Of a DNA stretch of 64,000 nt, positions 18,225 through 63,352 are shown in pieces (position 1 is the stretch's first letter; each line of letters starts with the position of its first letter). Below the pieces are notes generated by a model. The model was not told where the DNA came from and did not search any database. It worked only from the letters and a program-made list of their open reading frames with translations. Source of the DNA: Flavobacterium sp. AED (lineage in GTDB: Bacteria; Bacteroidota; Bacteroidia; Flavobacteriales; Flavobacteriaceae); contig NZ_JSYM01000004.1 of the NCBI RefSeq assembly GCF_000812945.1, positions 124,001 to 188,000 of the forward strand. Reading direction: 5' to 3'. The translations under genes were made by a program, and so were the position numbers.

Positions 18225-18584
18225 GAGTAAATGGTTTTTTAGAAATTAATATAAATGAATGCGACTTGTACTATTTTTTTATTGTTAGCTGAACTATTTT
18301 TAGTTTTACATCAAACACATCTTATAATTTGGTTAAAAATATACAATTCCATTACAAAATTTAAGTATAAAATGTGATATGTGTTTAAATTATATTGTTA
18401 TTTTATGAATTACGAAAGTCAAAAGTAAAATAAAAATATTTATTTACGTCATTTATAAATGTATTTTTTACATTTATTACTATTATGTAAGTTAAATACT
18501 TAAAAGAGTGGTGTTTCCCCCGTATTAAATACTAATTTTATTTCTGATTCATTTCACTGGTTTACAATACTGTTTTTATTTATT
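18225..18584 (-). promoter_or_regulatory. 360-nt regulatory gap between galE and the symporter gene
   Basis: This non-coding AT-rich stretch holds the AraR palindrome at 18455-18477 and, on the minus strand, a candidate -7 element TACTTTTG (18427-18420), about 200 nt before the symporter start. Unlike the other AraR sites, the operator lies upstream of the -7 by 27 nt, so it may sit at or above the -33. No coding potential or terminator was seen after galE. Confidence 0.5.
18455..18477. promoter_or_regulatory. AraR operator upstream of the symporter gene
   Basis: Perfect 9-bp inverted repeat ATAAATGTA-N5-TACATTTAT with a TTTTT centre. It is the most symmetrical of seven such sites in the window. 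Confidence 0.75.
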
Positions 18585-19604
18585 TTAGTTGCTCTTTCTG
18601 ATTTTCTGCTCCCATTTCCAAGCACTTGCCATCCCTTCTTCAAGAGTTGACTCTGTTTTCCAGCCAAGAATGTTATTCGCCTTATCTGTATTGGCATAAG
18701 CCGAAATCACATCTCCTTCTCTTCTATCAACAATCTTGTAGGGTAATTTTTGTCCACTTACTTTTTCGAAAGCTGCAATAACTTCTAAAACAGAGCTTCC
18801 TGTTCCTGTTCCAAGATTAAAAGTTTCTATTTTAGCTAAATTCTTTTTGTTAACCAATCGCTGCAAAGCAATAACATGCGCTTTTGCCAAATCGACAACG
18901 TGAATATAGTCTCGCACACAAGTCCCATCAGTTGTTGGATAATCATCCCCATAAACGGATAATTCTTTTCTCAATCCAATTCCGGTTTGGGTAATAAATG
19001 GCACTAAATTTTGGGGAGTCCCTATAGGCAATTCACCAATTTCTGTTGATGGATGAGCACCAATCGGATTAAAATAACGCAACAAAATAGCGTTTATCCC
19101 ACTTACTTTTGTAACATCTGTAATGATTTCTTCGCCAATTTGTTTGGTATTCCCGTAAGGTGACATTGCTGGTTTAACTGAGGCACTTTCATTAATCGGC
19201 ATTGTTTCGGCTTGACCATAAACAGTACAAGATGAACTGAAAATAAAATGAGATTCCGGTTTTTGTTGCAATTCCTGAAGCAAATAGATTAGCGTATTAA
19301 TGTTGTTTTCATAATACAATAACGGGTTTCCAACACTTTCACCAACTGCTTTAGAAGCTGCAAAATGAATTAGACCAGAAACATCAGAATGTCTTTTGAA
19401 AAAATCTTGAACTGATGCTTTCTCTCTCAAATCCAACTTTTCAAAAACTGGCATTATGCCTGTTATAGCAACTATTCCTTTTAAAACTTCTTCAGACGAA
19501 TTAGAAAGATTATCAATAATCACAACTTCAAAACCTTCCTTTTGTAATTCAACTACAGTATGCGAACCAATAAATCCCAATCCGCCAGTAACTAATATTT
19601 TCAT
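18585..19604 (-). CDS. galE: UDP-glucose 4-epimerase
   Basis: GalE interconverts UDP-galactose and UDP-glucose in the Leloir pathway. The 339-residue SDR protein has the NAD-binding GGLGFIGSHT at the N terminus, the SSSCTVYG substrate strand and the catalytic YGNTK (Y-x3-K) motif, then the NPIGAHPS loop. It is the last gene of the minus-strand galactose series, 88 nt after the GH36 stop. The length matches the E. coli enzyme (338). Confidence 0.96.
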   Translation of the reverse strand: MKILVTGGLGFIGSHTVVELQKEGFEVVIIDNLSNSSEEVLKGIVAITGIMPVFEKLDLREKASVQDFFKRHSDVSGLIHFAASKAVGESVGNPLLYYENNINTLIYLLQELQQKPESHFIFSSSCTVYGQAETMPINESASVKPAMSPYGNTKQIGEEIITDVTKVSGINAILLRYFNPIGAHPSTEIGELPIGTPQNLVPFITQTGIGLRKELSVYGDDYPTTDGTCVRDYIHVVDLAKAHVIALQRLVNKKNLAKIETFNLGTGTGSSVLEVIAAFEKVSGQKLPYKIVDRREGDVISAYANTDKANNILGWKTESTLEEGMASAWKWEQKIRKSN

Positions 19605-19692
19605 AATTTATTATTTATGCTATTTAAAAAACAGTAAAAATTCAGTAGATAACTTATAAATCATTTATTATCTTTTTAACTATTTGGTTGCC

Positions 19693-21915
19693 TTATTTTA
19701 CTTCGTTAATCTCTAAAACTACACTCGTTCTTTTCAAAGAAACATTTGGATTTATTCCAGCTTTCATCAAGAAATCGCCTGAGTAAACTTTATCAGAATC
19801 AATTGATGAAGTAACGCCTGGATACACGTTAATTTCTTTTACCGTATATTTTTTCTTTGGATTTAATCCGTTTAATACAACTGGTCGCTCAGTAGCAGTA
19901 ATATTAAATCTATTATTCACTAAGTAGTTAAAAACAACTGCTTTACTTTTCTCTGGATTTACATACATCAATGCTGCAATATTGTTTTCGTGAGGATTCA
20001 CTAGTCGAAACATATCGCCATGCCAAACTATATCTTTAAATGAATTGTAATTCGAAATAGCTTGTTTGCAAAATGTTTTATCATCAGGGTTTAATTTGCT
20101 TGCTACAATATCAAAACCCAATTTTCCCATACTAGCCACATCAACTCTAAATTTTAGTGGTTGTTTTCCCCAATCGGTCACGTGGTTACAGGTTGCAATC
20201 GAAGGGAAGAAATAGGAGTAATCCCATTGAACAAAAATTCTTTCCAAAGGTTCGGTGTCATCTGTTGGCCAAAATTCTGTAAAATACTTCAAAAATTCAT
20301 AATCGCCACGTCCACCGCCACCAGAACATAACATCATTGGAACTTTTGGATATTTGGCACGAATTCGTTGCAGTACTTTATACAATCCTTTGGTGTAATC
20401 TACATACAAATTAGATTGTGGCAATCCTTTTTTATTAAGGTATGCGGAATAGGCGTTATAAATAGTCGCATTACAATCCCATTTTATAAATGCTAATTCT
20501 GGATTTTTTACAAATAGATTATCTACAATTCCAAAAACAAAATCTTGAACTTCGGGATTCGACAAATCTAAAACGAGCTGATTTCTATAATAAATCTCAG
20601 GCCTTTGTGGTTGACGAATTACCCAGTCTAAATGTTTTTCGTATAATTCGCTTTTAGGATTTACCATTTCTGGTTCTATCCAAATACCAAATTTAACTCC
20701 TTCTTTTTTAGCTTCTTTTACTAAGTAGCCCAAGCCGCTTGGAAGTTTCTTTTTATTCTCCTGCCAGTCACCAAGCCCTGCATCATCATTATTTCTTGGA
20801 TATTTATTGCCAAACCATCCATCGTCTAACAAAAACATATCAACACCCAAATCTTTTGCATCTTTAAACAAGCCTTTAAGTTTATTTTCATCAAAATCAA
20901 AATAAGTGGCTTCCCAATTGTTCAATAAGGTAAGACGTTCGCCTTGACCATCAAGAAGTCTGTATTTTCTTGCCCAATCGTGAAGGTTTCTACTGGCTTC
21001 GCCTGTACCATTATTTGAAAGTGCATAAATTAAAGAAGGAGTTTTAAAAATTTCGTTTGGAGCCAATGAATATTCAGAAGCAAACGGATTGATTCCTGCA
21101 ATTAGTCTAAGATTTTTATTAGAGTCGATTTCAAATTCAAGTTTAAAATTACTACTCCAAGCTAATTGACCTAACATCACTGTTCCATCATTTTCTGAAG
21201 CTGGTTTTCCAAAAGAAACCATAAAATTAGGAGTTTGTGTAAGCATCGCTCTGGTTCCTAATTTTGTATCTAAAGATCTTATTCCCTGCACAAGCTTAGT
21301 TTCAACAGGTTGCATTTCTTTTAGATATTCTCCTTGAAAACTGGTGAGATAGAAATCTTTTCCTCCAAAAAACAAATTTGCCGAAGCGTATTTTTGTAAC
21401 AATACCGCTTTCTTCTCGTTATGTTTTATCTCAGTCCATTGCTCAATTACATTTTCTTTTGCCCAAACTTTATAAAACAAAGTCACCTCAAACGGATAAA
21501 TTGGATCTTTAAGAATAATACTGGTAATCGAACTATTAGCATCAATTTTTTCCGTTTTATGACTTACATATTTTAGTTCTAAAGAAGTATTTCCATCTGC
21601 ATGTTTGACCTGAATGGCTGGTTCAGAAAGATTCCAAGTGCCCGATGGTGTGTATGCAGAATTATAAATTCCTTGATTAGAATAATCATAATTATATCCC
21701 GCCGAAACCGTTGCAAATTCACTTGCGTTTTCAAGTGGTTTACCAAAATAAACTGTCATCAAACGATTATTATTATCTGTTTGCAACAGCATCATATTGT
21801 TATTGGTTGCAATAGGTATTGTAACTTTTTGCGCCCATAAACTGATGACACCAAACATAAAAAACAATGTAAAAACACCTTTTTTATTGAAACAGAATTT
21901 TAGTTTTTCTTTCAT
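19693..21915 (-). CDS. Secreted alpha-galactosidase, GH36
   Basis: The 740-residue enzyme would release alpha-linked galactose. I chose the ATG at 21913-21915 (MKEKLKFCFNKKGVFTLFF), which gives a signal peptide ending near SLWAQ; an ATG 7 codons upstream is possible. A beta-rich N-terminal domain (to about 330) precedes the TIM barrel. The clan GH-D nucleophile motif KWDCN has D480 and the acid/base region WPTDDT has residues 552-553. It lies 89 nt downstream of the LacZ-type GH2, in the galactose series. A GH36-like enzyme acting on beta-L-arabinopyranosides is an alternative. Confidence 0.88.
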   Translation of the reverse strand: MKEKLKFCFNKKGVFTLFFMFGVISLWAQKVTIPIATNNNMMLLQTDNNNRLMTVYFGKPLENASEFATVSAGYNYDYSNQGIYNSAYTPSGTWNLSEPAIQVKHADGNTSLELKYVSHKTEKIDANSSITSIILKDPIYPFEVTLFYKVWAKENVIEQWTEIKHNEKKAVLLQKYASANLFFGGKDFYLTSFQGEYLKEMQPVETKLVQGIRSLDTKLGTRAMLTQTPNFMVSFGKPASENDGTVMLGQLAWSSNFKLEFEIDSNKNLRLIAGINPFASEYSLAPNEIFKTPSLIYALSNNGTGEASRNLHDWARKYRLLDGQGERLTLLNNWEATYFDFDENKLKGLFKDAKDLGVDMFLLDDGWFGNKYPRNNDDAGLGDWQENKKKLPSGLGYLVKEAKKEGVKFGIWIEPEMVNPKSELYEKHLDWVIRQPQRPEIYYRNQLVLDLSNPEVQDFVFGIVDNLFVKNPELAFIKWDCNATIYNAYSAYLNKKGLPQSNLYVDYTKGLYKVLQRIRAKYPKVPMMLCSGGGGRGDYEFLKYFTEFWPTDDTEPLERIFVQWDYSYFFPSIATCNHVTDWGKQPLKFRVDVASMGKLGFDIVASKLNPDDKTFCKQAISNYNSFKDIVWHGDMFRLVNPHENNIAALMYVNPEKSKAVVFNYLVNNRFNITATERPVVLNGLNPKKKYTVKEINVYPGVTSSIDSDKVYSGDFLMKAGINPNVSLKRTSVVLEINEVK

Positions 21916-22004
21916 AATAATTAATTTTAACAGCACCTTTCTATCAGCTCAATTTATTTCACCCTTATTTATAATTGCTAAAATAGGGGCGAAATTTTAA
22001 TTTT

Positions 22005-25151
<3,147 letters not shown>

Positions 25152-25208
25152 TTAAGATCGAATTACTTTTATCTGAAGACATAAAGCTATCAGATGTTTA
25201 TAAGAGAT

Positions 25209-25253
25209 GACAAATGATTAATTCGCTATAATAAAACGCATTAACCATTTGTC
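25209..25253 (-). other. Strong intergenic hairpin directly after susD (galactose locus)
   Basis: gacaaatg-a-ttaat (25209-25222) pairs with attaa-c-catttgtc (25240-25253): 8 bp, one mismatch, 5 bp, 17-nt loop. No U-tract follows on the minus strand, so it is not a standard terminator. It could protect the 3' end of susCD mRNA or mark a processing site. Confidence 0.55.
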
Positions 25254-25297
25254 AAGTTCTTATTTAATCTTTTATTAATTAAAAGGTATAACCCAAA

Positions 25298-26815
25298 TTA
25301 CCAATTGGCATTTTGTGTCATTTTTGGATTGTTATTCAACTCACTTTCTGGAATAGGAAAGAAGTTATATTTCGCTGAGTAATTAAGATAACCGCCAACT
25401 TGACTTTCTTTAATTACTTTTTCTAAAGTACCCCATCTTCTTAAATCATACCAGTGAATCCCTTCACGAGCAAATTCAACATTTCTTTGGTGCATAATCT
25501 CATCCATCATTTGGGTTTGATTCCATCCTGTCATTGTGATAGTAGCTAACTTTGCTCTGTCTCTTATTCTTTTAACTAAAGGTATCGCTTCAGCCACTTT
25601 TCCTTGCATCGTTTTTGCTTCAGCAAGCATTAAAAGAACATCAGCATAACGCATTGCATATTCATTCAATTCTGATTTCCAATCCCCTTCATCATTATTC
25701 CACCAGTTTTGGTTTTTTCTAATCCATATAGCATTAGCTCCAAACTTTGATGCAAAATCAGAATTATAATAGGTACTACCCGGATAGTTCCAAGCCAAAG
25801 TAGCAAGAGCTCTAGGATCAAAATTATTATCAACCGTTTTTTCTTTAGTCATGGCATCCAATAATACTTTTGTAGGCAACAACTCAAACCATCCTCCAAC
25901 TTCTCCTGGCGCTAATTCTTGTGCCATAGTAGTTGCTCTAGTTCTTTCGGATGGATTTCCACCCCAAATAGTAGCACCACCTTGTCTGCTGAATTGAATT
26001 TCAAACACTGATTCTTTACTATTTTCATGTTTACCATCAAATAGTTGTGCATAATCATCCAAAAGACCAAACCCATTTGCAGATTCGTTATTTACTAGTT
26101 TAGAAAATTGCTCTTCGGCTTTTGCCCAATCTTTTAAATACAAATACGATTTCCCAAGGTAAGCAATTGCCGTATTTTTTGTTACTCGACCTTTTAAAGC
26201 TGAAGGATAGATTTCAGGTAATGGACTTGTCGCAGCTGCTTGAAAATCAGCAATTATTTGTTTCCACACTTCTTCTTCTGTTGATTTTTCTTTAAAATAA
26301 TCTGCTGATTCTTTTACTAAATCTGTAAAAATTGGAACACTTCCAAATTCATTTACCAAATTAAAATAGTTCAATCCTCTAAGAAAAGTAGCTTCAGCAA
26401 CTATTTGTGCTCTTTTTGTTTCATCAATATTCTTGATTTGAGGAGCATAATTGATTACTTGATTGGCACGAAATATACCAATATACATTGCTTTATACAT
26501 CCCGGTAGTCTCACTTGTACTAGGTGTATTTTTATAACTGGAAACGGCATAACGACCTGGAACATCATTTCTTGCAACAAAATTTTCGGTTCTGTTTTCT
26601 TTCAACTGCATCGCTTGTATTTCCCAATAACCCGCGTTATTATTATCTACTAATACATTGTAAACAGTCGCTAATCCAGACTCTAAATCCTCAGGAGTTT
26701 GCCAGAAAGAACCAGTTGTTACTTTACTAGGATTTTGTAATTCGAGGTTATCAGAGCAAGAGCTTAGCAAAACCAGTCCTCCCATAAAATATAATATTAT
26801 TAATTTCTTTTTCAT
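25298..26815 (-). CDS. SusD/RagB-family surface glycan-binding lipoprotein
   Basis: This 505-residue lipoprotein forms the lid over its SusC partner and binds oligosaccharide at the cell surface. I chose the ATG at 26813-26815 (MKKKLIILYFMGGLVLLSSC), because it yields a signal peptide with lipobox LLSSC; an in-frame ATG 11 codons upstream adds nothing. TPR-like helices include AEATFLRGLNYFNLVNEFG and AYLGKSYLYLKDWAKAEEQF, and the C-terminal WYDLRRWGTLEKV and FFPIPESELNNNP are family hallmarks. It sits 10 nt after SusC. Substrate is inferred as a galactose-containing glycan from the neighbours. Confidence 0.95.
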   Translation of the reverse strand: MKKKLIILYFMGGLVLLSSCSDNLELQNPSKVTTGSFWQTPEDLESGLATVYNVLVDNNNAGYWEIQAMQLKENRTENFVARNDVPGRYAVSSYKNTPSTSETTGMYKAMYIGIFRANQVINYAPQIKNIDETKRAQIVAEATFLRGLNYFNLVNEFGSVPIFTDLVKESADYFKEKSTEEEVWKQIIADFQAAATSPLPEIYPSALKGRVTKNTAIAYLGKSYLYLKDWAKAEEQFSKLVNNESANGFGLLDDYAQLFDGKHENSKESVFEIQFSRQGGATIWGGNPSERTRATTMAQELAPGEVGGWFELLPTKVLLDAMTKEKTVDNNFDPRALATLAWNYPGSTYYNSDFASKFGANAIWIRKNQNWWNNDEGDWKSELNEYAMRYADVLLMLAEAKTMQGKVAEAIPLVKRIRDRAKLATITMTGWNQTQMMDEIMHQRNVEFAREGIHWYDLRRWGTLEKVIKESQVGGYLNYSAKYNFFPIPESELNNNPKMTQNANW

Positions 26816-26825
26816 TTTCGTTGAT

Positions 26826-29800
26826 TTAAAAGTTAAGTTGCATACCAAAAATAATAGTCTTGCTTAATGGATACGATTTATAATCGATTCCTCTACCTCC
26901 AAGTCCATCAGCCGAAACATCTGGATTATATCCTGTGTATTTAGTAGAAGTGAAAAGATTATCACCTGCAACATAGAATCGACATTTGTCAATTGCTAAT
27001 TTTTGACTTAAGTCATTAGGAAACGTATATCCTAATTGAATCGTTTTTAATCTAAGATATGACCCATTTTCAAGGAAACGATCTGAGTAATCAGCACCAT
27101 TATCATTTGGATCATCAATATTTAATCTTGGAAAATTAGAGTTTGGATTAAAAGTAAATGAATTTAAAGTTGAACTGGCATAATTTGTATTTGCTTTTAC
27201 TGTTGCTAAGTCTGTATTATTTCCATTATATATTTCATTTCCTTGAACTCCTTGAAGAGCTAGGGTCATATCAATTCCTTTCCAATCTGCTTGAAGACGG
27301 AATCCATATTCAAAATCAGGGAAAGCACTACCTCTAAATTGTCTGTCTCCAGCATCAATTTTTCCATCTCCATTATAATCAACATATCTGATGTCACCAA
27401 TTTGAGCTCTAGGCTGAATAGGATTTCCATTTACACTATGTGCATCCAGTTCTTCTTGTGTTCTAAATAATCCGTCAGTCTTAACAAGGAAAAAAGAATA
27501 AATAGGATATCCAACTTTACTATAAGTCACTGCTGATCCATGAAATGATCCGCTAGAGCCTGCAAGAATCTGGCTTCCTGTGCTTAGTTCATCAACACGA
27601 TTTTTTACACTTGAAATATTAGAAGTTATAGAAAAATTAACTCCTCCTACCTTTTGATTGTATGTTAATCCCATCTCAAAACCTTTATTTGAAACCTTCC
27701 CTGCATTAGTGTAAGGGTCATTACTAGAACCTACTGACAATGGAATTGGCACACGTAAAAGTAAATCGGAAGTATTTTTCTGGAAGTAATCAAAAGTATA
27801 ATCTAATTTACCATTCCATAACCCTAAATCAAAACCAACATTAGCTGTTGAAGTTGACTCCCATTTTAACCCAATCGCAGGATAATCTGTTTGAATGTTT
27901 CCGATCCAAAGTGTATTTGGCTCTCCTGTACCATAGCTTATTCCTGATGTAATTGACCCCAGATACTGGTAATCTCCAATTTCTTGATTTCCTAAGATAC
28001 CATAACTAGTACGTATTTTAAATTCAGAAACAGGTAAACCTAAGTTTTTGAAAAACTGTTCTTTTCCTATTCCCCATGCTGCAGAAATGGAAGGGAAATT
28101 TCCCCATTTATTTTCTGGGCTAAAACGAGAAGAACCATCACGTCTAAAAGTTGCTGTAAGGATATATTTGTTATCATACGAATATATCGCACGTCCAAGA
28201 TAAGAAATCAATTTACTCTCAGTAGCATACCCTGATATAGCTGGTTGTTCAGCACCTGCCAAAACAAATATACCATCAGGCATACCTTGAACAGAACCTG
28301 AAATAGAACGAAAATTATTTTCATAAATAGTATGTCCTACCAATAAATTTACCGAATGCTTACCAAATTTTTTAGAATAGTTTAAAGTATTTTCTATTTG
28401 ATAGTATTGATTTAATTCACTTCCTTCCGCTAAAGTATTTTTTAAATTCTTGAAGAATCCACCCACTTCATAACGTGGTGTATAGTTATAACTTTTATGT
28501 TCTGAGGCTGTTACCCCAACATTTAATTTATACTTAAACCCATCAAAGAAACTTGCTTCTGCATAGGTATTAATCAATGCTTGGTAATAATCATTTTTAA
28601 CATCAAAAAGATTCAAAGCTGCCACTGGATTGAATATATCAGTAACCGCACCTGATGCTCCACCATATCCACCTACAGCATTTTCATTATAAATTGCAAA
28701 CCCTGGAATCATAGAAATAGCAGCTCCAAGAATATTTCTTCCTTGTCCAGGTATTCCTGGTAAATCATTTCTTTTTTCTTTGGTCAACATTACTGTTTCT
28801 CCAATTTTAAAAATACCTTTTTTGTAATCCGATTTAACTCTTAAGTTAACACGGTCATAATTAGTTTCCTTGATAACTCCTTCTTGATTAAAGTAGCTCA
28901 AAGACATATTGTATTTTAAATTATCTGAACCTCCAGAAAGCCCTAATGAATAGTTTTGTGTAGGAGCTGCTCTGAAAATTTCATTCTGCCAATTAATTCC
29001 TGCTCCAGGAACCTGAGGGTTTAAAGCAATGTCCAATGGTGCTTTTCCTGCTGCACTATATGCTGCATTACTTACCTTTGCCCATTGTTCTTGATTTAAT
29101 AAATCAAGTTTTTTAGTCACACTGGCAATTCCATAAAAAGAATCAAAACTCACTTTCATTTCTCCTTTTTTCCCGCTCTTAGTAGTAATTAAAATTACAC
29201 CATTTGCAGCTCTAGAACCATAAATTGCAGCCGCAGATGCATCTTTCAAAACTTGAATTGATTCGATGTCATTTGGGTTAAGGTTATTCATTGAGGCAAC
29301 AGCAATATCATCAACTAATATCAAAGGATTATTATTGTTTAATGATCCTGCACCTCTAATCTGAATTCTGGTTCCAGAACCAGGGGCGCCACCAGCAGAC
29401 TCTACAGTAACACCGGCAATTTTACCTTGTATTGCACTCCCTAAATTTGTATTACTTTGAGAATCTAATTGTGCTGCTTTTAATCCTCCAACAGCTCCAG
29501 TTAAATCACTTTTCTTAACAGTACCATATCCAATTACTACTACTTCATCTAAGGTATTATTCTCTTCTTTAAGTGAAACATTGATCACTTTTCTACCCGC
29601 AATAGCTTCTTCTACTTTAGTATATCCAATGTAAGAGAAAACTAGTGTAGCATTAGGGTCAGCTACATTTAATTTATAATTTCCATCGCCGTCAGTCATT
29701 GTTGCATTTGTCGTTCCTTTGACAGCTACAGAAGCCCCAATAACGGTTTGAGATGTTTTTTGATCAACAATTGACCCAGTAATAGTGTTCTGAGCCTGTA

Positions 29801-29900: not shown

Positions 29901-30064
29901 AAATTCATGGTTTTAAAAATTGGTTAGTTAATAATTTTTTTGGGTGTTTATTTAATTATCCTTTTAAAAAAAACAAAAGAATAGTAGCCTTCCTTGCTAA
30001 AGAAAGAAATTGAAATTGAGCTAAAAATCAATTCATTCGGAAATTTTACTATATTCTGTGTGGT

Positions 30065-31117: not shown

Positions 31118-31118
31118 C

Positions 31119-34636: not shown

Positions 34637-34695
34637 TTTTTGGTACAATAAAAATTTAAATAAATAAAAACAGCAATTATTATAATTCGTTTTTG

Positions 34696-35721: not shown

Positions 35722-35772
35722 AAAATATGATATATGTTTTATTTTGATTATTTTTTTACGAAATATTAAATT

Positions 35773-47798: not shown

Positions 47799-47809
47799 AA
47801 AAGAATACA

Positions 47810-49426: not shown

Positions 49427-49458
49427 TTTATTTCCTTTTGCTATTTAATTAAGGAACA

Positions 49459-49492
49459 CAAACGGCCCTTTCTATTTTAGAAAGGGCGTTTG
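49459..49492 (+). other. Intergenic hairpin between two GH43 genes
   Basis: caaacg(g)ccctttct (49459-49473) pairs with agaaagggcgtttg (49479-49492): 14 bp with one bulge, 5-nt loop. The following sequence is A-rich without a T run, so this is more likely an mRNA-processing or stability element than a terminator. Confidence 0.6.
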
Positions 49493-49511
49493 AATAAAAA
49501 ATAAAACAAAA

Positions 49512-50507: not shown

Positions 50508-50615
50508 GTAGTTTCAGTCGCAGTTTTCAGGAATTGCTTTAAACAGGAACGATTAATAAAACCATTTAAACTTACATTTTCTTAAATGACTGATATGGTT
50601 TAAAAAAAATAAAAC

Positions 50616-51596: not shown

Positions 51597-51629
51597 ATTA
51601 AATATATAAATCGATTAATAGTAGGTAAA

Positions 51630-53597: not shown

Positions 53598-53689
53598 AAG
53601 AGATATTAAATTATAAAAAAACAGATAATAGACGGAAAGATTAGTGAATTTTAATCCGCTGAATTGAACTTTTAAACAAATAAAGAAAC

Positions 53690-55675
53690 ATGAAACCAAA
53701 TTTAATCACCAAATTAACCCTTTGCGGTTTATTGCTAAATGGTATATACGCCAATGCCCAAAAAATAAATCTCGAAGTAAATACCAGCAAAACAATTACT
53801 AAAATTCAACCAACGATGTATGGTGCCTTTTTTGAAGACATTAACTTTGCTGCTGATGGTGGATTGTATGCTGAAATGATCAAGAACCGTTCTTTTGAAT
53901 TTGACACGCCTCTTATGGGCTGGGAACAACCCAATAGTGATACCCATTCTTTCAATGCAGCATCCGGTATTGCCACAACTATCAAAGCATTAGAAAACAA
54001 AACCAATCCTAGTTTTTGTAGAGTTCTTGTAAATAATGACAAAGGATTTGAAATAATTAATACCGGATTTAGAGGAATGGGAATTAAGAAAGATGCTAAG
54101 TACAATCTTTCTCTAAAAGCGGCGAATCACAATGGCGCTATCAAAAAAATTATCATCCAATTTATTGATAAAAACAAAAAAGTTTTAGGTGAAACCAGCA
54201 TTACACCAACATCTAATGACTGGAAAGGGTATTCTGCTCAATTTACAGCAACCCAAACCGAAGCAAAAGCACAATTGAAAATCACTTTTGAAGGAAGTGG
54301 AACCATCGATTTAGATATGATTTCATTATTCCCCGAAGACACTTGGAAAAACAGAAAAAATGGTTTACGAAAAGACATCATACAATTATTATATGATATG
54401 AAACCAGGATTTTTAAGATTTCCCGGAGGTTGTATTGTTGAAGGAAGAACATTGGCACAACGCTACCAATGGAAAAAAACCGTGGGCGATATAGAAAATA
54501 GAGAGACATTAATAAACCGTTGGAATACCGAATTTACACACAAACCAGCACCGGATTATTTCCAGACTTTTGGATTGGGATTTTTTGAATATTTCCAACT
54601 TTCCGAAGATCTTGGTGCACAACCCTTACCTATTTTAAGTTGCGGAATGGCTTGTCAATTTAATACTGGGGAATTAGTCCCAATGGATGAATTAGATCCC
54701 TATGTGCAAGATGCATTGGATTTAATCGAATTTGCAAATGGCGGCGTTGAAACTCCTTGGGGTAGAATCCGTTCAGAAATGGGGCATCCAAAACCTTTCA
54801 ATTTAAAACTTATTGGTGTTGGAAACGAACAATGGGGTCCTCAATACATCGAAAGATTTAAAGTATTTGAAAAAGCCATAAAATCAAAATATCCAAAAAT
54901 GACGATTGTTTCAGGTGCAGGTCCATTTCCAGAAGGTGATTATTTTGATTATGGTATGCAGGAACTTAAAAAGTTAAATGCCGAAATCGTTGATGAGCAT
55001 TATTATAAAAACCCACAATGGTTTAGAGAAAATGCAACTCGTTATGACAAATACGACAGAAAAGGACCTAAAGTTTTTGCAGGAGAATATGCCGCTCAAA
55101 GTGTTGCTATTGCAAGTCCTGATAATAAAAACAACTGGGAATGTGCGTTTTCTGAAGCTGCTTTCATGACTGGTTTAGAAAGAAATGCCGAAGTGGTAAA
55201 CCTAACTTCCTATGCCCCATTGATGGCGCATGAAGAAGCTTGGCAATGGACACCGGATTTACTTTGGTTCAATAATTTAGAAGCGTATGGTTCTGCTAAT
55301 TATTATGTTCAAAAATTATTTTCAACCAATAAGGGAACTGACTTAATTGCAATTACCAAAGACGGAAAACCAGTAACTGGCCAAAGTAATTTGTTTGCTT
55401 CGGCGGTAAAAGATGTAAATACAAAAGAAGTAATTGTAAAACTGGTTAATACATCCGCAACTGCACAAGAGGTAAATATTGATTTAAAAGGAAGCAAATT
55501 AGCGGCTAAAGGAACTCTTATAACACTTACAAGTGCAAACCTGGAAGATGAAAATTCTTTTGCAGCACCTAAAAAAATAAGTCCTACAGAAAAGGAATTT
55601 AAGTTAAAAGGTGACAAAGCGCAAACAAGCCTTCCAGCCTATTCAGTAACAGTTTTGAAGTTAAAGATGAAATAA
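53690..55675 (+). CDS. Secreted alpha-L-arabinofuranosidase, GH51 (long form with inserted domain)
   Basis: The 661-residue enzyme is the long GH51 form. After the signal peptide (ending YANAQ) and a first strand set (IQPTMYGAFFEDINFAADGGLYAEMIKNRSFEF), a CBM-like beta-sandwich is inserted (about 75-215). The barrel carries the acid/base glutamate in IGVGNEQWGPQYIE and the nucleophile glutamate in VFAGEYAAQ. C-terminal sandwich ends LPAYSVTVLKLKMK. It is the last enzyme of the SusCD-led series; a hairpin follows. Confidence 0.92.
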   Translation: MKPNLITKLTLCGLLLNGIYANAQKINLEVNTSKTITKIQPTMYGAFFEDINFAADGGLYAEMIKNRSFEFDTPLMGWEQPNSDTHSFNAASGIATTIKALENKTNPSFCRVLVNNDKGFEIINTGFRGMGIKKDAKYNLSLKAANHNGAIKKIIIQFIDKNKKVLGETSITPTSNDWKGYSAQFTATQTEAKAQLKITFEGSGTIDLDMISLFPEDTWKNRKNGLRKDIIQLLYDMKPGFLRFPGGCIVEGRTLAQRYQWKKTVGDIENRETLINRWNTEFTHKPAPDYFQTFGLGFFEYFQLSEDLGAQPLPILSCGMACQFNTGELVPMDELDPYVQDALDLIEFANGGVETPWGRIRSEMGHPKPFNLKLIGVGNEQWGPQYIERFKVFEKAIKSKYPKMTIVSGAGPFPEGDYFDYGMQELKKLNAEIVDEHYYKNPQWFRENATRYDKYDRKGPKVFAGEYAAQSVAIASPDNKNNWECAFSEAAFMTGLERNAEVVNLTSYAPLMAHEEAWQWTPDLLWFNNLEAYGSANYYVQKLFSTNKGTDLIAITKDGKPVTGQSNLFASAVKDVNTKEVIVKLVNTSATAQEVNIDLKGSKLAAKGTLITLTSANLEDENSFAAPKKISPTEKEFKLKGDKAQTSLPAYSVTVLKLKMK

Positions 55676-55679: not shown

Positions 55680-55721
55680 AATAGAATAAATTTATAACAA
55701 ACGTTTATTATTTATTCTATT
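55680..55721 (+). other. Hairpin at the end of the arabinan enzyme series
   Basis: aatagaataaa (55680-55690) pairs with tttattctatt (55711-55721), 11 bp perfect, with a 20-nt loop. No T run follows. It separates the enzyme genes from the araBDA promoter and may be a weak terminator or mRNA 3'-end stabiliser. Confidence 0.5.
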
Positions 55722-55774
55722 CGTAAATACCTGTTTTAATGCTGTTTTAATAAAAATTACAATGTTAAATTAAA

Positions 55775-55797
55775 TTAAGTGTTTTTTATACACTTAT
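55775..55797. promoter_or_regulatory. AraR operator upstream of araBDA
   Basis: TTAAGTGTT-N5-TACACTTAT. It ends 13 nt before a TATATTTG -7 element and so covers the -33 region. Confidence 0.7.
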
Positions 55798-55810
55798 AAA
55801 TTATTTATAC

Positions 55811-55818
55811 TATATTTG
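55811..55818 (+). promoter_or_regulatory. -7 element of araBDA
   Basis: TATATTTG matches TAnnTTTG exactly, 24 nt upstream of the araB start. The -33 region is occupied by the AraR operator. Confidence 0.6.
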
Positions 55819-55842: not shown

Positions 55843-57534
55843 ATGAAAAATTATGTTATAGGATTAGACTATGGAACAGATTCTGTTCGAGCGATGTTAA
55901 TAGACACTGAAAATGGACAAGAAATAGCATCAAATGTTTGTCATTACAAGCGATGGAAAAACAAGGAATATTGCAACGCATCCATAAACCAGTTTCGTCA
56001 ACACCCTTTAGATCATATCGAAGGATTAGAAACCACTATAAAATATGTTGTTGAAAATAGCAATGTAGATCCTTCTCTTATACGAAGCATTTGCATCGAC
56101 ACAACCGGTTCTTCTCCTGTACCCGTTACTGAAGATGGAACACCATTAGCTTTGACAAAAGGTTTTGAGAACAATCCTAATGCCATGATGGTACTTTGGA
56201 AAGATCATACTGCTATAAATGAAGCCAACGAAATCAATGAGCTTGCCGCTACTTGGGGTGGAGAAAATTTTACCAAATATGTTGGAGGAATTTATTCTTC
56301 AGAATGGTTTTGGGCAAAAATTCTACACATAGCCAAACAAGACGAAGCAGTAAAAAATGCCGCTTACACTTGGATGGAACATTGTGATTTAATGACGTAT
56401 TTATTGATTGATAATAAAGATTTAAAATCATTCAAAAGAAGTCGTTGTGCTGCGGGTCATAAAGCCATGTGGCATGAAGACTGGAATGGTTTACCTCCAG
56501 AAGAATTCCTAGGAAAACTACATCCTTATCTTGCGGCACTTCGTGGAAGATTATACGATGAAACGTATACTTCAGACCTTGTAGCAGGAAATTTAAGCCA
56601 AGAATGGGCAACCCGATTGGGACTTACAACTGATACGGTTATAGCCGTAGGAACATTCGATGCACACTCTGGTGCTGTAGGAGCAAAAATAGAAGAACAC
56701 ACATTGGTTCGTGTTATGGGAACCTCAACCTGTGATATAATTGTTGCTTCAGAAGAAACAATAGGGACTAAATCAGTTCGTGGAATCTGCGGACAAGTAG
56801 ATGGCTCTGTAATTCCGGGTTATATCGGTCTTGAAGCAGGTCAATCCGCTTTTGGAGATTTATTGGCTTGGTACAAAGAGTTACTACTATGGCCAACAGA
56901 TCATTTATTAGCTACTTCTACCCTTTTGACAGCTGCCCAAAAAGAGCAACTAAAAGAAGAAATTAGTGATAATTTAATTATACAATTAACAGCTGAAGCT
57001 GAGAAAATCCCAGTATCCGAAAGTGTGCCAATCGCACTAGATTGGATTAACGGAAGAAGAACTCCGGATGCTAATCAGGAAATAAAAAGTGCTATTTCTA
57101 ATTTATCATTAGGAACCAAAGCGCCTCATTTATTCAAATCTTTGGTTAACGCCATCTGTTTTGGTTCTAAAAAAATCGTAGACCGTTTTGAAGAAGAAGG
57201 AGTAAAAATAAACAGCGTCATCGGAATTGGTGGTGTAGCGAGAAAATCTCCTTATATCATGCAAACTTTGGCTAACGTTTTGAACAAGCCTATTAAAATT
57301 GCAGCTTCAGACCAAACACCAGCATTAGGCGCCGCTATTTATGCAGCAGTTGCAGCAGGAATTTATCCTAACGTAATTGAAGCCAGTCAAAAAATGGGAA
57401 GTGATTTTGATGGAGAATATTTCCCTCAATTAGACAAAGTTGCAGCGTATCACAAGTTGTTGTTAGCGTATGACCAATTAAGTTCATTTGCAGATCCATC
57501 TCTTAAAAAACTTCAACAGGAACAGTATGTATAA
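55843..57534 (+). CDS. araB: L-ribulokinase
   Basis: AraB phosphorylates L-ribulose. The 563-residue FGGY-family kinase has the N-terminal phosphate motif GLDYGTDSVRAMLID, the ribulokinase-typical CRYW-like CHYKRWKN, the catalytic aspartate in GTFDAHSGAVGA and the C-terminal GIGGVARKSPYIMQTLANVLNKPI adenosine-binding region. Length equals E. coli AraB (566) closely. It overlaps araD by 8 nt. The promoter carries an AraR site. Confidence 0.97.
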   Translation: MKNYVIGLDYGTDSVRAMLIDTENGQEIASNVCHYKRWKNKEYCNASINQFRQHPLDHIEGLETTIKYVVENSNVDPSLIRSICIDTTGSSPVPVTEDGTPLALTKGFENNPNAMMVLWKDHTAINEANEINELAATWGGENFTKYVGGIYSSEWFWAKILHIAKQDEAVKNAAYTWMEHCDLMTYLLIDNKDLKSFKRSRCAAGHKAMWHEDWNGLPPEEFLGKLHPYLAALRGRLYDETYTSDLVAGNLSQEWATRLGLTTDTVIAVGTFDAHSGAVGAKIEEHTLVRVMGTSTCDIIVASEETIGTKSVRGICGQVDGSVIPGYIGLEAGQSAFGDLLAWYKELLLWPTDHLLATSTLLTAAQKEQLKEEISDNLIIQLTAEAEKIPVSESVPIALDWINGRRTPDANQEIKSAISNLSLGTKAPHLFKSLVNAICFGSKKIVDRFEEEGVKINSVIGIGGVARKSPYIMQTLANVLNKPIKIAASDQTPALGAAIYAAVAAGIYPNVIEASQKMGSDFDGEYFPQLDKVAAYHKLLLAYDQLSSFADPSLKKLQQEQYV

Positions 57535-58219
57535 AGATTTAAAACAAGAATGCTACGAAGCAAACATGCAATTAAACGCATTGAACTTAGTAGTCTATAC
57601 TTTTGGGAATGTGAGCGCAGTAGATAGAAAAAATGGTGTTTTTGCCATAAAACCCAGCGGCGTTCCTTATGAAGATTTAAAACCGGAAGACATTGTTATT
57701 GTGGATTTTGACAACAACATTATCGAAGGCAATATGCGTCCTTCTTCGGATACAAAAACGCATGCTTATTTATATAAAAATTGGCCAAACATTGGCGGTG
57801 TGGCACACACTCACGCTACCTATTCTGTGGCTTGGGCACAAGCACAAAGAGACATTCCAATATTTGGAACAACACATGCCGATCACTTAACATCCGATAT
57901 TCCTTGTGCAGCGCCAATGGTTGACTCACTTATCGAAGGAAATTACGAACACAATACAGGAATCCAAATCTTGGATTGCTTCAAAGAAAAAAATCTTTCT
58001 TACGAGGAAGTAGAAATGGTTTTGATAGGCAATCACGGTCCTTTTGCTTGGGGAAAAAATGCAGCGAAAGCGGTTTATAATAGTAAAGTTCTTGAAGTAG
58101 TAGCGGAAATGGCTCACTTAACATTACTGATAAATCCAAATGCACCAAGACTGAAAGATTCCTTAATAAAAAAACATTACGAACGTAAACACGGAAAAGA
58201 CTCGTATTACGGACAGTAA
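57527..58219 (+). CDS. araD: L-ribulose-5-phosphate 4-epimerase
   Basis: AraD converts L-ribulose-5-phosphate to D-xylulose-5-phosphate. I chose the ATG at 57527 (MYKDLKQECYEANMQL), giving 230 residues, equal to the family norm of 231, with an 8-nt overlap of the araB end; an upstream in-frame ATG lies inside araB. Class II aldolase motifs are GNVSAVDRKNG, KPSGVPYEDL, the metal histidines in GGVAHTHATYSVAWAQ and the catalytic region GNHGPFAWG. Confidence 0.97.
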   Translation: MYKDLKQECYEANMQLNALNLVVYTFGNVSAVDRKNGVFAIKPSGVPYEDLKPEDIVIVDFDNNIIEGNMRPSSDTKTHAYLYKNWPNIGGVAHTHATYSVAWAQAQRDIPIFGTTHADHLTSDIPCAAPMVDSLIEGNYEHNTGIQILDCFKEKNLSYEEVEMVLIGNHGPFAWGKNAAKAVYNSKVLEVVAEMAHLTLLINPNAPRLKDSLIKKHYERKHGKDSYYGQ

Positions 58220-58277
58220 TTGTCCAACACATTGAACAGTTAAAACGATTAAACAAATAAACGATTAAACAAAAAAT

Positions 58278-59792
58278 ATGATCGATATATCTCAAAAAGA
58301 AATTTGGTTTGTAGTAGGAAGCCAAGAATTATACGGTGAAGAAACACTACGAAAAGTAGCGGAACATTCCCAACACATCGCAAAAGGATTAGATGCTTCA
58401 TCACATATACCGGTAAAAATCGTGTATAAAGATGTGGTAAAGTCTCCAGCTCAAATTACAAATGTATGTTTAGAAGCTAATTCAAACAAAAACTGTATTG
58501 GTATTGTGGCTTGGATGCATACTTTTTCGCCAGCTAAAATGTGGATTGGTGGTTTAAGCATTCTTAAAAAACCGTTGTGTCACTTACATACACAATTCAA
58601 CGCTGAAATTCCATGGGCTTCTATGGATATGGACTTCATGAATTTAAATCAATCGGCTCACGGAGACAGAGAGTTTGGTTTTATCATGTCCAGAATGCGT
58701 AAAAAACGTAAAGTGGTTGTAGGACATTGGGAAGACGAACGCGTTCAAAAAAAATTAGGCATTTGGTCCAGAGTGGTTTTAGGTTGGGATGAATTCCAAA
58801 ACTTAAAAGTTGCGAGAATTGGAGACAATATGCGTGAAGTTGCAGTAACTGAAGGAGATAAAGTCGAAGCCCAAATCCGTTTTGGTTTTTCGGTAAACGG
58901 TTTCGACTCTTCAGACGTTATAAAACATATAGATAAAGTTTCTGATGCAGACATCAACAAATTGGTTGAAGTTTATGAAGCTTCGTATACTTTAGCTCCA
59001 GCGCTTCAAAAAGGCGGTGCTCAAAGAGACTCATTAGTAGAAGCTGCTAAAATAGAAATAGGCCTTAGAGCTTTCCTTGAAGAAGGTGGTTTCAAAGCGT
59101 TTACAGATACTTTCGAAAATCTGGGTTCATTAAAACAACTTCCAGGAATTGCAGTACAACGCCTTATGGCTGATGGATACGGTTTTGGAGGTGAAGGTGA
59201 CTGGAAAACAGCGGCGATGCTTAGAGCAATGAAAGTAATGAATGTAGGTCTTGAAAGCCAAGGTGGAACTTCATTCATGGAAGATTACACCTATCATTTT
59301 ACACCTGAAAAATCGTATGTTTTAGGTTCTCACATGTTAGAAATTTGTTCTTCTATTGCTGATGCAAAACCTTCTTGTGAAGTACATCCATTAGGAATTG
59401 GAGGAAAAGAAGACCCAGTCCGTTTAGTATTTAACGTAGCTGCAGGAAATGCCATCAATGCTTCATTGATTGATATGGGCAACCGTTTCAGATTGATTGT
59501 AAACGAAGTAGAAGCGGTAAAACCTATGGCTGATTTACCTAAACTTCCTGTTGCGCGTGTATTATGGGATTGCAAACCTAACCTTGATATTGCTGCAACT
59601 ACATGGATCTTAGCAGGTGGTGCGCATCATACCGTGTACAGTCAAGTGCTAACAACGGAATATATGGAAGATTTTGCCGATATTGCAGGCATAGAATTGC
59701 TTGTTATTGATGAGAAAACGACTATCAGAGATTTTAAAGATAAAATTAATGCTAACGAAGCGTACTATCATTTGTTTCAGCACGGTCTATAA
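58278..59792 (+). CDS. araA: L-arabinose isomerase
   Basis: AraA interconverts L-arabinose and L-ribulose. The 504-residue product (E. coli 500) begins [19 protein letters not shown], the standard N-terminal motif. Manganese and substrate residues are seen in the glutamate and histidine segments of [12 protein letters not shown] and LGSHMLEI. It follows araD after 58 nt and is the third gene of the catabolic operon. Confidence 0.97.
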
Positions 59793-59811
59793 TAACTAAA
59801 AAAAAGTAATT

Positions 59812-60999
59812 ATGAATGTAATAAAACGTTGTATTTATGGAATTTCCATTATGAGTTTAGCAAGTATGAATATTCAATGTAAAGGAGATAAAAAGGCTGG
59901 AGCCGATGAAACTGCTTTAGAAGCTAAAGCGACAGATTCAGTGTCTATAGCAAAAGCAGAGTATGGCACTACGCCAAAAGGAGAAAAAATAGAGCGCTAT
60001 ACCCTTAAAAACCAAAAGGGAATGGAAGTAAATATCATTACTTATGGTGGTATTATTTCTTCTTTAAAAGTGCCTAACAAAGCGGGGAAATCCGAAGAAG
60101 TTGTTATCGGGTTCAATTCTTTGGAACAATACATGAAAGCTAATCCATACTTTGGAGCTATCATTGGAAGATATGGCAACCGAATTGCAAAAGGTAAATT
60201 TACTTTAGACGGAAAAGAATATTCATTAGCTATCAACAATGCACCTAATGCATTACATGGTGGCCCAGAAGGCTTTAACAGAGTCGTTTGGACTGCCGCT
60301 GAAGCAAAAGGTGGAGACAGCGCATCCTTGAAATTGAAGTATGTGAGCAAGGATATGGAAGAAGGTTATCCAGGAAACTTGACCGTTTTTGTAACCTACA
60401 CGCTAAAAAATGATAATTCTTTAGATGTACTTTATGAAGCGACTACTGACAAGAAAACGATTGTGAATTTGACACAGCATTCGTATTTCAACTTGTCAGC
60501 AGATTTTTCTAAACCTATTTTAGACGAAGAGATCACAATCGATGCAGATAAATTAGTTCCAGTTGCTGCAACACTTATCCCAACAGGTAAACTAACGGAT
60601 GTAACTAATACGCCTTTCGATTTCAGAAAACCAAAAGCTATTGGAAAAGACATAGAAGCCAAAGATGAGCAATTGAAAAATGGATTGGGTTACGACCATT
60701 GTTGGGTACTAAACAATCAGGATAAAGGATATCGCTTTGCGGCATCGGCCTATGATGCAGGAAGCGGAAGAGTATTAGAAGTATATACGGATCAACCGGG
60801 AATACAATTCTATACCGGAAACTTCTTAGACGGGACTTTACCAATGAGAAACGGTGGCATGTACGCGCACAGAACAGGCTTTTGTTTAGAAACACAACAC
60901 TATCCAGATTCTCCAAATCAAAAAGATTTTCCATCTACGGTTTTAAGCCCAGGGGAGAATTACAAAACGAAAACAACATTTAAATTTTCAGTAAAATAA
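59812..60999 (+). CDS. Aldose 1-epimerase, lipoprotein form
   Basis: The 395-residue mutarotase starts with a lipoprotein signal (lipobox SMNIQC, Cys about 23) and an alanine/lysine-rich spacer before the catalytic fold. Motifs are GRYGNRIAKGKFTLDGK, NALHGGPEGF, the catalytic histidine in NLTQHSYFNLS and the base glutamate in GFCLETQHYPDSPNQ. It differs from the cytoplasmic GalM at 34696-35721 by export. In the araBDA operon it would equilibrate arabinose or galactose anomers in the periplasm. A terminator follows 93 nt downstream. Confidence 0.92.
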   Translation: MNVIKRCIYGISIMSLASMNIQCKGDKKAGADETALEAKATDSVSIAKAEYGTTPKGEKIERYTLKNQKGMEVNIITYGGIISSLKVPNKAGKSEEVVIGFNSLEQYMKANPYFGAIIGRYGNRIAKGKFTLDGKEYSLAINNAPNALHGGPEGFNRVVWTAAEAKGGDSASLKLKYVSKDMEEGYPGNLTVFVTYTLKNDNSLDVLYEATTDKKTIVNLTQHSYFNLSADFSKPILDEEITIDADKLVPVAATLIPTGKLTDVTNTPFDFRKPKAIGKDIEAKDEQLKNGLGYDHCWVLNNQDKGYRFAASAYDAGSGRVLEVYTDQPGIQFYTGNFLDGTLPMRNGGMYAHRTGFCLETQHYPDSPNQKDFPSTVLSPGENYKTKTTFKFSVK

Positions 61000-61407: not shown

Positions 61408-63327
61408 TTATATCTTCACCACAAACCCACCATGAGGTTTCATCATTACTTTCAGTTTAGTGCTTTTTGATACTGTATTTTGCTGAAATCCTTTCTCATT
61501 TTCAGAAATAATAAACCCTTTAGCATTGGTTACAAAAGACAAATCGATCTCTATTTCTTTAATAGTATTTTCTCCATTAATACCAACGATATGCCAAACG
61601 TTATCTTTTTTTCTTGCCATTACAATGTACTTCCCTGGATAACCGGCAATAAATTTGGAATCATCCCAATTCGTCGGAATATCTTTTAAATAATCCACTA
61701 CGTACTGTGGCATTTTGGCCATTCCTTCTGGAATTTCAGCAATATGTTGCACTCCGGATAAGAATAAAACAGGCAATGCCAATTCGAAAGCTGGAGTAGT
61801 TTTTCTAGTTATGTTTGGAATGGAATCCAAGACCATTGGCGTAAAATCCATTGGATCAAAAACATTACGTGCAAAAGGAAGCATTGAGCAATGACTTGGA
61901 GCCAAATCTGCAATATCCTGAAAAAAGGTAATGTATTCATACCCCTTAACTGCTTCAGTGGAAACTAAATTAGGGTACGTACGTTGCCATCCTCTAGGCA
62001 AAGTGGCACCATGGAAATTAACCATTAGTTTATGGGCTGCAGCATCTACTAACATATCATGATAATACCCAATCATCGATTGTCCGTCACCACCAAAGAA
62101 ATCTACTTTAATCCCCGCAATACCCATATCTGTAAGTTTAGTAAATTCTCTATCTCTGTCGGCATGAGTCAATAATTTGCTTTTAGGATGGTATTCAGTG
62201 CTGTTCCAAGATCCTGATGAATTGTACCAAACCAATAGCTTCACATTTTTACCTTTGGCGTAAGCCGCTAATTCCTTCATTTTATCATAGCCAATTCTAG
62301 TGTCCCAATCGGCATCAATTAAGCAATACGGCCAATTCATTTTGGAAGCGTAATCAACGAATTTTACCGTAGTTTCATAATTAACCGATTCATCTTTTAG
62401 CAAAACCCAACTCCAAGAAGACAACCCACTTTTTATGAAAGAAGTATCCATAGCGATGGACGGATCAGCTAAATCAGTTCCCATGGTACTTTCGGTGATT
62501 GTTTTTAAGGAACCAATGGTTATAATTCTCCAAGGGGTAAACCAAGGCAATGTAGATTCAGGATTCAAAGCACCATTAGGAAAAATCTCTTCTTTTTGTG
62601 GAAAAGTTACCTGCATCGCTTTTGAAGTGTCATTATACACCAATCGGCTGCCACAGTAATTTCTTGGTAATCCCACTTCAGAAACTAAAAGCCAAGTGTT
62701 ATTCGTATGGAACAAAGCCGGATACACCCACCCTTCTCCAATCGCTGGTTTTGTATTTACGGGAACGCCCATAGCATAATGTTCCTCATAAGCAGGATTG
62801 GTTTCTTTCCATCCTGTTTTAGCTTTAGACATGGGTTGCAGCCAAGCTTTTGTCGTTGTGTCAAAATTATAAGCAGTTTTTTCTTCCACTATTTTTTTTA
62901 TTGCTGTTGAAGTTTCAGGAAAATGGTATCGCAACGCAATTCCATCGTGGGATAATTGAAAAATAATTTCCATAGCTTCTCCGGTACTGTTTTGCAAACG
63001 TACCGTATATTGATTTGCAGCATAAGAGATTTGTTTTCGTTTCCCTTGCAACATGGAATAGGTTGATTTAATTGGTTTTGGAGTAGAAACATTTACTATT
63101 TTTAAACCGGTATAAAAATTGGCATCTTCTCTTATAATCCCCAAATCCGAAGTATTGATGACCAATTTATCTTTAAAGAAAACTTTGTAAGAAGGCGTCT
63201 TCTTTGAAGTTAGATTAAATTCCATTTTTATTGTTTTATCTGAGTTGACAAAATAATAAGCGGTTGGTTTCCCCGCAAACGAAGTCAATGACACCGCCAA
63301 TAAAGCTAGCAAAACTATTTTTTTCAT
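61408..63327 (-). CDS. Secreted GH97 glycosidase, predicted beta-L-arabinopyranosidase/alpha-galactosidase type
   Basis: The 639-residue enzyme has a signal peptide (ending SLTSFAG), the N-terminal beta-super-sandwich (about 25-285), a TIM barrel and a C-terminal beta domain. GH97 exists in inverting (glutamate base) and retaining (aspartate nucleophile) forms. The motif GIKVDFFGGDGQ with D409 fits the retaining form, as in Bacteroides alpha-galactosidases. A Bacteroides retaining GH97 (BT3661) is described as beta-L-arabinopyranosidase/alpha-galactosidase. The AraR operator directly before the start codon makes arabinopyranoside cleavage the most attractive role here; this is inference. Confidence 0.9.
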   Translation of the reverse strand: MKKIVLLALLAVSLTSFAGKPTAYYFVNSDKTIKMEFNLTSKKTPSYKVFFKDKLVINTSDLGIIREDANFYTGLKIVNVSTPKPIKSTYSMLQGKRKQISYAANQYTVRLQNSTGEAMEIIFQLSHDGIALRYHFPETSTAIKKIVEEKTAYNFDTTTKAWLQPMSKAKTGWKETNPAYEEHYAMGVPVNTKPAIGEGWVYPALFHTNNTWLLVSEVGLPRNYCGSRLVYNDTSKAMQVTFPQKEEIFPNGALNPESTLPWFTPWRIITIGSLKTITESTMGTDLADPSIAMDTSFIKSGLSSWSWVLLKDESVNYETTVKFVDYASKMNWPYCLIDADWDTRIGYDKMKELAAYAKGKNVKLLVWYNSSGSWNSTEYHPKSKLLTHADRDREFTKLTDMGIAGIKVDFFGGDGQSMIGYYHDMLVDAAAHKLMVNFHGATLPRGWQRTYPNLVSTEAVKGYEYITFFQDIADLAPSHCSMLPFARNVFDPMDFTPMVLDSIPNITRKTTPAFELALPVLFLSGVQHIAEIPEGMAKMPQYVVDYLKDIPTNWDDSKFIAGYPGKYIVMARKKDNVWHIVGINGENTIKEIEIDLSFVTNAKGFIISENEKGFQQNTVSKSTKLKVMMKPHGGFVVKI

Positions 63328-63329
63328 AA

Positions 63330-63352
63330 TTAAGTGTTTAATTTACACTTAC
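63330..63352. promoter_or_regulatory. AraR operator at the GH97 promoter
   Basis: TTAAGTGTT-N5-TACACTTAC. On the minus strand a -7-like TATTCTTG (63359-63352) ends on the first operator base, as in the tkt and susC promoters. The start codon is 3 nt away. Confidence 0.7.

Follow-up and report, generated by a model that had tools for sequence, protein, structure and literature searches.

A predicted arabinose regulon of Flavobacterium sp. AED under an AraR-type Nudix/winged-helix regulator

The DNA considered here, hereafter the window, is a stretch of 64,000 nucleotides from Flavobacterium sp. AED (contig NZ_JSYM01000004.1, C4:124001-188000 in our numbering of the 3.93-Mb genome), to whose first base all positions below refer unless a contig or locus is named. 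It carries a regulator gene of the AraR/NrtR family, araR, together with genes for arabinan breakdown, sugar uptake, arabinose catabolism and pentose-phosphate metabolism, and a 23-bp palindrome recurs in front of these genes. A first-pass annotation, made from the letters alone, had read the palindromes and the regulator as an AraR regulon. The genes concerned are the following.

16539-18224, minus strand: SSS-family sodium:solute symporter (Pfam SSF), proposed arabinose transporter; arabinose is its presumed substrate
37258-39297, plus strand: tkt, full-length transketolase (domain and family matches)
39325-39981, plus strand: tal, transaldolase/fructose-6-phosphate aldolase (TIGR00875, above cut-off)
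40186-40875, minus strand: araR, AraR/NrtR-family regulator of 229 amino acids with a degenerate Nudix domain and a winged helix-turn-helix (Pfam, PDB 5bs6, residue comparison)
41510-46151, plus strand: susC and susD pair of the arabinan locus
46251-55675, plus strand: arabinan-degrading enzymes, namely two arabinofuranosidases, three members of glycoside hydrolase (GH) family 43 and one of GH127
55843-60999, plus strand: araB (FGGY kinase), araD (class II aldolase family), araA and an aldose epimerase
61408-63327, minus strand: GH97 glycoside hydrolase (best solved relative 5xfm, E = 5.5e-137)

The two arabinofuranosidases are presumably of the GH51 type. araA is the sole match of its kind in the genome, and the operon tkt is the sole full-length transketolase match, the other one, elsewhere, being split and 36-37% identical. 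With tkt so placed, the pentose-phosphate step may possess an arabinose-controlled copy of this gene.

The first-pass annotation had placed a regulator with a degenerate Nudix domain amid the regulon, and domain searches bear this out. The product of 40186-40875 matches Pfam NUDIX, NrtR_WHD and AraR_C, all above cut-offs, with the Nudix-like domain preceding the winged helix-turn-helix, and no GntR domain, as would be expected of a Bacillus-type AraR, was matched in it by Pfam. Its nearest solved relative by sequence is AraR of Bacteroides thetaiotaomicron (BtAraR; 5bs6, also 5dd4, 5ddg and 5deq; E = 8.7e-67), to which it aligns without gaps at 102 of 217 identical residues (47%); the closest named AraR relatives come from Flavobacterium loci and are 90-94% identical. 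Of the Nudix REUXEEXGU segment the protein retains R62, but I63, R66 and Y67 stand in place of the three glutamates, two or three of which are expected to be replaced in an AraR. The arabinose contacts given for BtAraR in the available part of PMC4666351 are R34, R86 and H131 plus a pocket of seven further residues. All three hydrogen-bonding residues are kept here and do not vary among 12 aligned orthologs; of the seven pocket residues, six (Y5, F36, G47, G48, F49 and F129) are kept, V92 being replaced by T. The sequence thus supports an AraR-type Nudix/winged-helix protein with a nearly intact arabinose pocket. In the DNA-binding part, D178, K179, R180 and N181 are kept relative to BtAraR; among the 12 orthologs R180, N181 and K205 are invariant, and K179 and S184 occur in 11.

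The palindromes of the window, all predicted to be AraR operators, and the promoter elements next to them are as follows.

18455-18477: predicted AraR operator before the SSS-family transporter; predicted -7 box at 18420-18427, minus strand, TACTTTTG
36989-37011: predicted AraR operator before tkt-tal; predicted -7 box at 36982-36989, TATATTTG; the operator would span about -5 to +18
40928-40950: predicted AraR operator before araR itself (autoregulation); predicted -7 box at 40892-40899, minus strand, one mismatch
41366-41388: predicted operator O2 of the arabinan susC promoter, the upstream one, 99 bp from O1
41465-41487: predicted operator O1 of the susC promoter; predicted -7 box at 41458-41465, TAAATTTA, one mismatch
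55686-55708: predicted decayed partner operator before araB, 89 bp upstream, score 10.7; the place of a second operator in some relatives
55775-55797: predicted araB operator; predicted -7 box at 55811-55818, TATATTTG; the operator would cover the -33 region
63330-63352: predicted AraR operator before GH97; predicted -7 box at 63352-63359, minus strand, TATTCTTG, one mismatch; same place in the congener G010

The palindrome ATAARTGTA-N5-TACAYTTAT had been reported at seven positions (all those listed except 55686). All seven are real sites, but only 18455 fits this consensus exactly; the other six deviate at two (36989, 40928, 41465 and 55775) or three positions (41366 and 63330). A better description is the core AARTGT-N7-ACAYTTA, exact at six of the seven and with one mismatch at 40928. 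The seven lie outside open reading frames (ORFs) of at least 100 amino acids, as claimed, and the genes downstream are indeed those named: transport, degradation, catabolic and pentose-phosphate genes and the regulator itself. With up to three mismatches, the 23-bp consensus has nine matches in the window against a mean of 0.46 in 100 shuffles, of which the richest had three and none reached nine; the two additional matches are at 43326, inside susC, and at 55686, intergenic and before araB. In a leave-one-out matrix every held-out site outranks all non-site positions of the window, and the seven sites score 22.1-25.5 with the seven-site matrix. The positions 45285 (score 15.3, inside susD) and 43326 (score 12.9) were treated as chance matches.

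Whether the motif is equally frequent elsewhere in the genome had been posed as a check, and the pattern scan came out in favour of the regulon at a high match level. The exact core has six forward and four reverse matches in the genome, all at the six sites that carry it, compared with one forward and no reverse match for the reversed core. When no more than one mismatch is allowed, the one-sided pattern AARTGTA-N5-TACACTTA returns 10 genome rows, all corresponding to the seven places; with up to three mismatches it is not enriched genome-wide (271 and 248 matches versus 307 and 293 for the reversed control). We read 17 other two-mismatch places of the genome (a further one, C7:167294, was left out): 16 are inside ORFs of at least 100 amino acids and all score at most 14.5.

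For comparison within the genus, 37 genomes (that of the window and 36 others) were searched and exact core matches on both strands were counted as raw numbers per genome, whatever its size; counts of the core with one mismatch over 60 genomes were uninformative, being in most of them not above the reversed control. Nine of the 37 genomes encode an AraR of 83-100% identity and have 10-15 exact core matches each (reversed control 1-6). The other 28 have 0-4 (control 0-8), except for G018, where six of the nine matches are copies of a single palindrome that is centred differently. In this genus the motif thus accompanies AraR. Outside it, G038, G040 and G053, with AraR of 53-58% identity, have 17, 6 and 8 exact core matches. 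We also examined the best 80 of 584 confirmed relatives among named Bacteroidota loci; 42 of these 80 have Flavobacterium in their titles. With the seven-site matrix, 186 sites scoring at least 18 were found in 71 of the 80 araR loci, whereas 20 matrices whose half-site columns had been permuted gave 0.65 sites on average. A homolog (at least 60% identity) of araR, susC, arabinofuranosidase, araB, the transporter, tkt or tal lies within 500 bp downstream of 171 of the 186. Counting only ORFs homologous to window proteins, six of the sites are inside such ORFs, perhaps owing to start codons picked too far upstream, and seven have neither such a homolog downstream nor such an ORF around them. 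In G010, sites are found at all six promoters, namely those of araR (score 13.1), susC (two sites), tkt, GH97, araB and the transporter. Finally, the arms of the motif agree with those of the BT0365 operator, for which PMC4666351 reports a gel shift and which scores 17.5 with our matrix, and the GTGT...ACAC-type palindrome before arabinose genes that characterizes AraR is present here.

Several arrangements among the relatives are worth recording. In L111, L115 and L143 a tkt-type operator directly precedes tal rather than tkt, which suggests that tkt was lost or moved. In L110, L114, L119 and L131 (about 10800-11020) the stretch between the araR 3' end and the next gene holds a tkt-type operator and an exact -7 box; no gene of at least 100 amino acids is present there, and the operator faces the araR 3' end, from which it is separated by what looks by eye like a terminator hairpin. 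It could be a deletion remnant or serve a short arabinose-controlled transcript. Unlinked sites in congeners were not counted as regulon members, the genes behind them being mixed (melibiase-type, BadF-type ATPase, rhamnosidase-type and others); among these, G010 (L187:3834) and G003 (L192:758) share a site 48-49 bp before a gene for a 283-residue BadF-type ATPase-like protein.

Taken together, the AraR-type regulator, the BT0365-like arms, the co-occurrence within the genus and the AraR-target homologs across the 80 named loci sustain the AraR regulon of the first-pass annotation. We conclude, with a probability of roughly 0.93, that this is an arabinose regulon of Flavobacterium under an AraR of the Bacteroidota NrtR/AraR branch, with operators at six promoters. 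At the level of sequence, the identity of the regulator, the predicted sites, their confinement to six promoters at a high match level and their conservation are established.

To place the operators relative to promoters, we marked matches to the F. psychrophilum sigma-A -7 box, which the available part of PMC9723704 gives as TAnnTTTG at -12 to -5, and adopted its numbering. In the window, the predicted boxes are exact for tkt, the transporter and araB, and have one mismatch for susC O1, GH97 and araR. Across the relatives, an exact box occurs at offset -7 in 10 of 10 tkt and three of three tal sites, and for transporter sites at +50 in 19 of 23 and at +49 in the other four. When one mismatch is allowed, a box is found at -7 in 21 of 45 susC and 22 of 30 arabinofuranosidase sites, and at +50 in 25 of 65 araR sites. 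Judged by these matches, operators of several targets hold a fixed position relative to -7-like boxes.

These positions suggest the following mechanism. Without L-arabinose, an AraR dimer would sit on the 23-bp palindromes at the six promoters and exclude RNA polymerase. The palindrome would overlap the start site and the last part of the predicted -7 box in the case of tkt, susC and GH97, and the -33 region in that of araB; for araR and the transporter its place would be immediately upstream of the core promoter. Once arabinan has released L-arabinose, the sugar would bind the dead Nudix domain, the winged helices would move and the dimer would let go of the DNA. Induction would then extend to uptake (susCD and the SSS transporter), arabinan breakdown (the GH51-type, GH43, GH127 and GH97 enzymes) and catabolism (araBDA and the transketolase/transaldolase pair, which would carry pentose phosphate onward), as well as to araR itself. 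Repression relieved by L-arabinose is likely, given the operator positions and what an araR mutant and gel shifts have revealed for B. thetaiotaomicron (PMC5061871, PMC4666351). DNA binding by AraR, arabinose as its effector and repression as its action would all carry over from Bacteroides.

A number of observations weigh against this interpretation. Three of the six DNA-contacting residues termed absolutely conserved in the available part of PMC4666351 (K179, R180, N181, K184, K204 and R205) are changed here: K184S, K204R and R205K, the latter two retaining charge. Since K205 is invariant and S184 present in 11 of the 12 orthologs, the changes at 184 and 205 are a lineage trait, and we did not treat the three as a failure of AraR membership because the AraR set of that paper consists of Bacteroides and Prevotella sequences and the arms of the operators resemble each other. 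Against our matrix, the two published BT0356 sites reach no more than 9.2 and 6.5. G037 and G052 have 12 exact core matches each, although their best AraR-like protein is only 39-40% identical, so the core count alone is no proof of AraR. Nine of the 80 loci lack a site scoring at least 18, and three of these have none of at least 13 within the stretch fetched. As for the promoters, only 13 of 29 araB-side sites, second operators among them, have an exact box at the commonest offset (+37), and exact boxes are rare for other targets, with at most three of 45 susC, three of 30 arabinofuranosidase and four of 65 araR sites at any one offset. Simple blocking is less obvious for araR and the transporter, whose operators are upstream of the core promoter. 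Finally, our literature search found no data on binding, on induction or on mutants from any Flavobacterium.

The palindromes might instead belong to another regulator, with AraR as a bystander. A candidate is the GntR/LacI-like protein encoded at 35829-36848, about 140 bp from the tkt operator, whose family presumably binds palindromes. However, this gene adjoins a galactose locus (galE, GH36, GH2, SusCD, galT, galK and galM) in which no position scores as high as 12, whereas the motif precedes araR and AraR-target homologs in 71 of the 80 loci, tracks AraR in the genus and resembles the published BT0365 operator, which makes this alternative very unlikely. It is similarly improbable that an AraR-like paralog shares or owns the sites. 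The genome does encode several NrtR-like relatives (seven matched stretches including AraR itself), among them a tandem pair at C4:87391-88848, but that pair stands beside FGGY-kinase and xylose-isomerase-like genes in a 20-kb stretch with a maximal score of 11.2, and in the genus the motif goes with AraR itself. Still harder to credit is an NrtR of the NAD (nicotinamide adenine dinucleotide) type that answers ADP-ribose and has an incidental arabinose neighbourhood. The best NCBIfam match is indeed the ADP-ribose-responsive NrtR model, but at 133 bits against a cut-off of 400; moreover, the protein retains Y5 and F36, which in BtAraR take up the space of the nucleotide, it has V89 in place of the arginine that contacts ADP-ribose, and the genes behind the sites serve arabinose and pentose phosphates.

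Of all the features described here, only the paired operators could point to an unreported mechanism. The susC operators O1 and O2 are exactly 99 bp apart in 19 genomes (that of the window, G010 and 17 of the 41 loci L104-L144), which are related and were chosen for having such a pair. In the same stretch, the distance from O2 to the araR operator ranges from 336 to 449 bp and that from O2 to O3, where present (12 loci), from 64 to 67 bp. The 99-bp spacing differs in none of the 171 pairs of these related genomes, compared with about 44% expected under equal indels per base. Among the 41 loci, L109 and L129 have two strong susC-side sites 356 bp and 164 bp apart instead. A second, often weaker site 89 bp from the araB operator occurs in 14 sources, the window copy (55686) being decayed; the totals of 21 at 99 bp and 14 at 89 bp refer to sources rather than genomes, some genomes entering twice (e.g. 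L065 and L136). A two-operator switch, in which two dimers 99 bp (susC) or about 89 bp (araB) apart would bridge the promoter region by a loop or another cooperative complex, is a tentative idea that we regard as rather unlikely. The fixed spacing may instead reflect an activator site between the operators. AraC and the AraR of Bacillus subtilis, which are unrelated proteins, form DNA loops of similar logic. Bridging, if true, would be a repression architecture unlike the closely adjacent tandem sites of Bacteroides. An argument for looping from helical turns was set aside: 89 and 99 bp are about one turn apart, but neither clearly corresponds to an integral number of turns, and the genomes are relatives of one another. 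Between the araB operator positions, at 55709-55774, a stretch with CTGTTTTAATGC is conserved in most of the 14 sources and is a possible site of another regulator.

Two neighbouring loci deserve mention. Between the arabinose transporter and tkt lies a galactose/galactoside locus (18585-36848) with galE, GH36, GH2, SusD, SusC, galT, galK, GH2, galM and the GntR/LacI-like regulator; it (18585-35775) was dropped as part of the regulon, its best position scoring 11.8. In F. cellulosilyticum (L106) the transporter and tkt operators are 521 bp apart, so the galactose block was gained here or lost there. The tandem pair of AraR/NrtR-type regulators (L072:9392-10849, that is G000:C4:87391-88848), located by FGGY-kinase, xylose-isomerase-like and SusCD genes, has similar counterparts in G006, G008 and G015, and perhaps represents duplicated XylR-type regulators.

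The closest known system is that of BtAraR (BT0354), as described in the available parts of PMC4666351 and PMC5061871, where a regulon of this kind was demonstrated in Bacteroides by gel shift, crystal structure and an araR mutant, the latter derepressed in B. thetaiotaomicron (PMC5061871). The two share the family, the arabinose pocket, a GTGT-type palindrome and an araR gene near its targets, and the reported targets overlap (ara catabolic genes, SusCD, GH51, GH43 and GH97). They differ in that the regulator here is 47% identical to BtAraR, with three of the listed DNA-contacting residues changed, and in that tkt/tal are an addition to the Bacteroides regulon. Bacteroides araMPRDAB has two sites 3 bp (or 42 nucleotides) apart, compared with 99 bp for susC here. 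Moreover, some arabinan loci of Bacteroides are also under hybrid two-component regulators, and none is found here among the genes assigned at 37-63.4 kb. PMC4666351 covers AraR in 17 Bacteroides and 15 Prevotella species; the strings 'Flavobacteri' and 'transketolase' are absent from its main text, 'transketolase' was not found in the available part of PMC3878776, and our literature search, with supplements and regulon databases outside it, found no paper describing this regulon in Flavobacterium. XylR (BT0791) is likewise an NrtR-family sugar regulator of Bacteroidota, from the xylose branch and 33% identical to BtAraR (PMC4666351); the tandem paralogs next to the xylose-like genes may be members of this branch. 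The AraR of B. subtilis is also an arabinose-relieved repressor of arabinose genes, but it is an unrelated protein with a GntR-type DNA-binding domain and a LacI-like sensor (PMC4666351). The regulon described here is thus a well-supported one of a known regulator type, ordinary in kind and mostly a new example of a described system, which would extend a repressor studied in gut Bacteroides to free-living degraders of plant polymers and offers testable operators and promoters for Flavobacterium. To the Bacteroides system it adds operator positions fixed with respect to predicted -7 boxes for several targets, three changes in DNA contacts, paired operators with a concrete double-operator geometry, and the predicted inclusion of the tkt/tal operon, by which the switch may also govern the exit from arabinose catabolism into pentose-phosphate metabolism.

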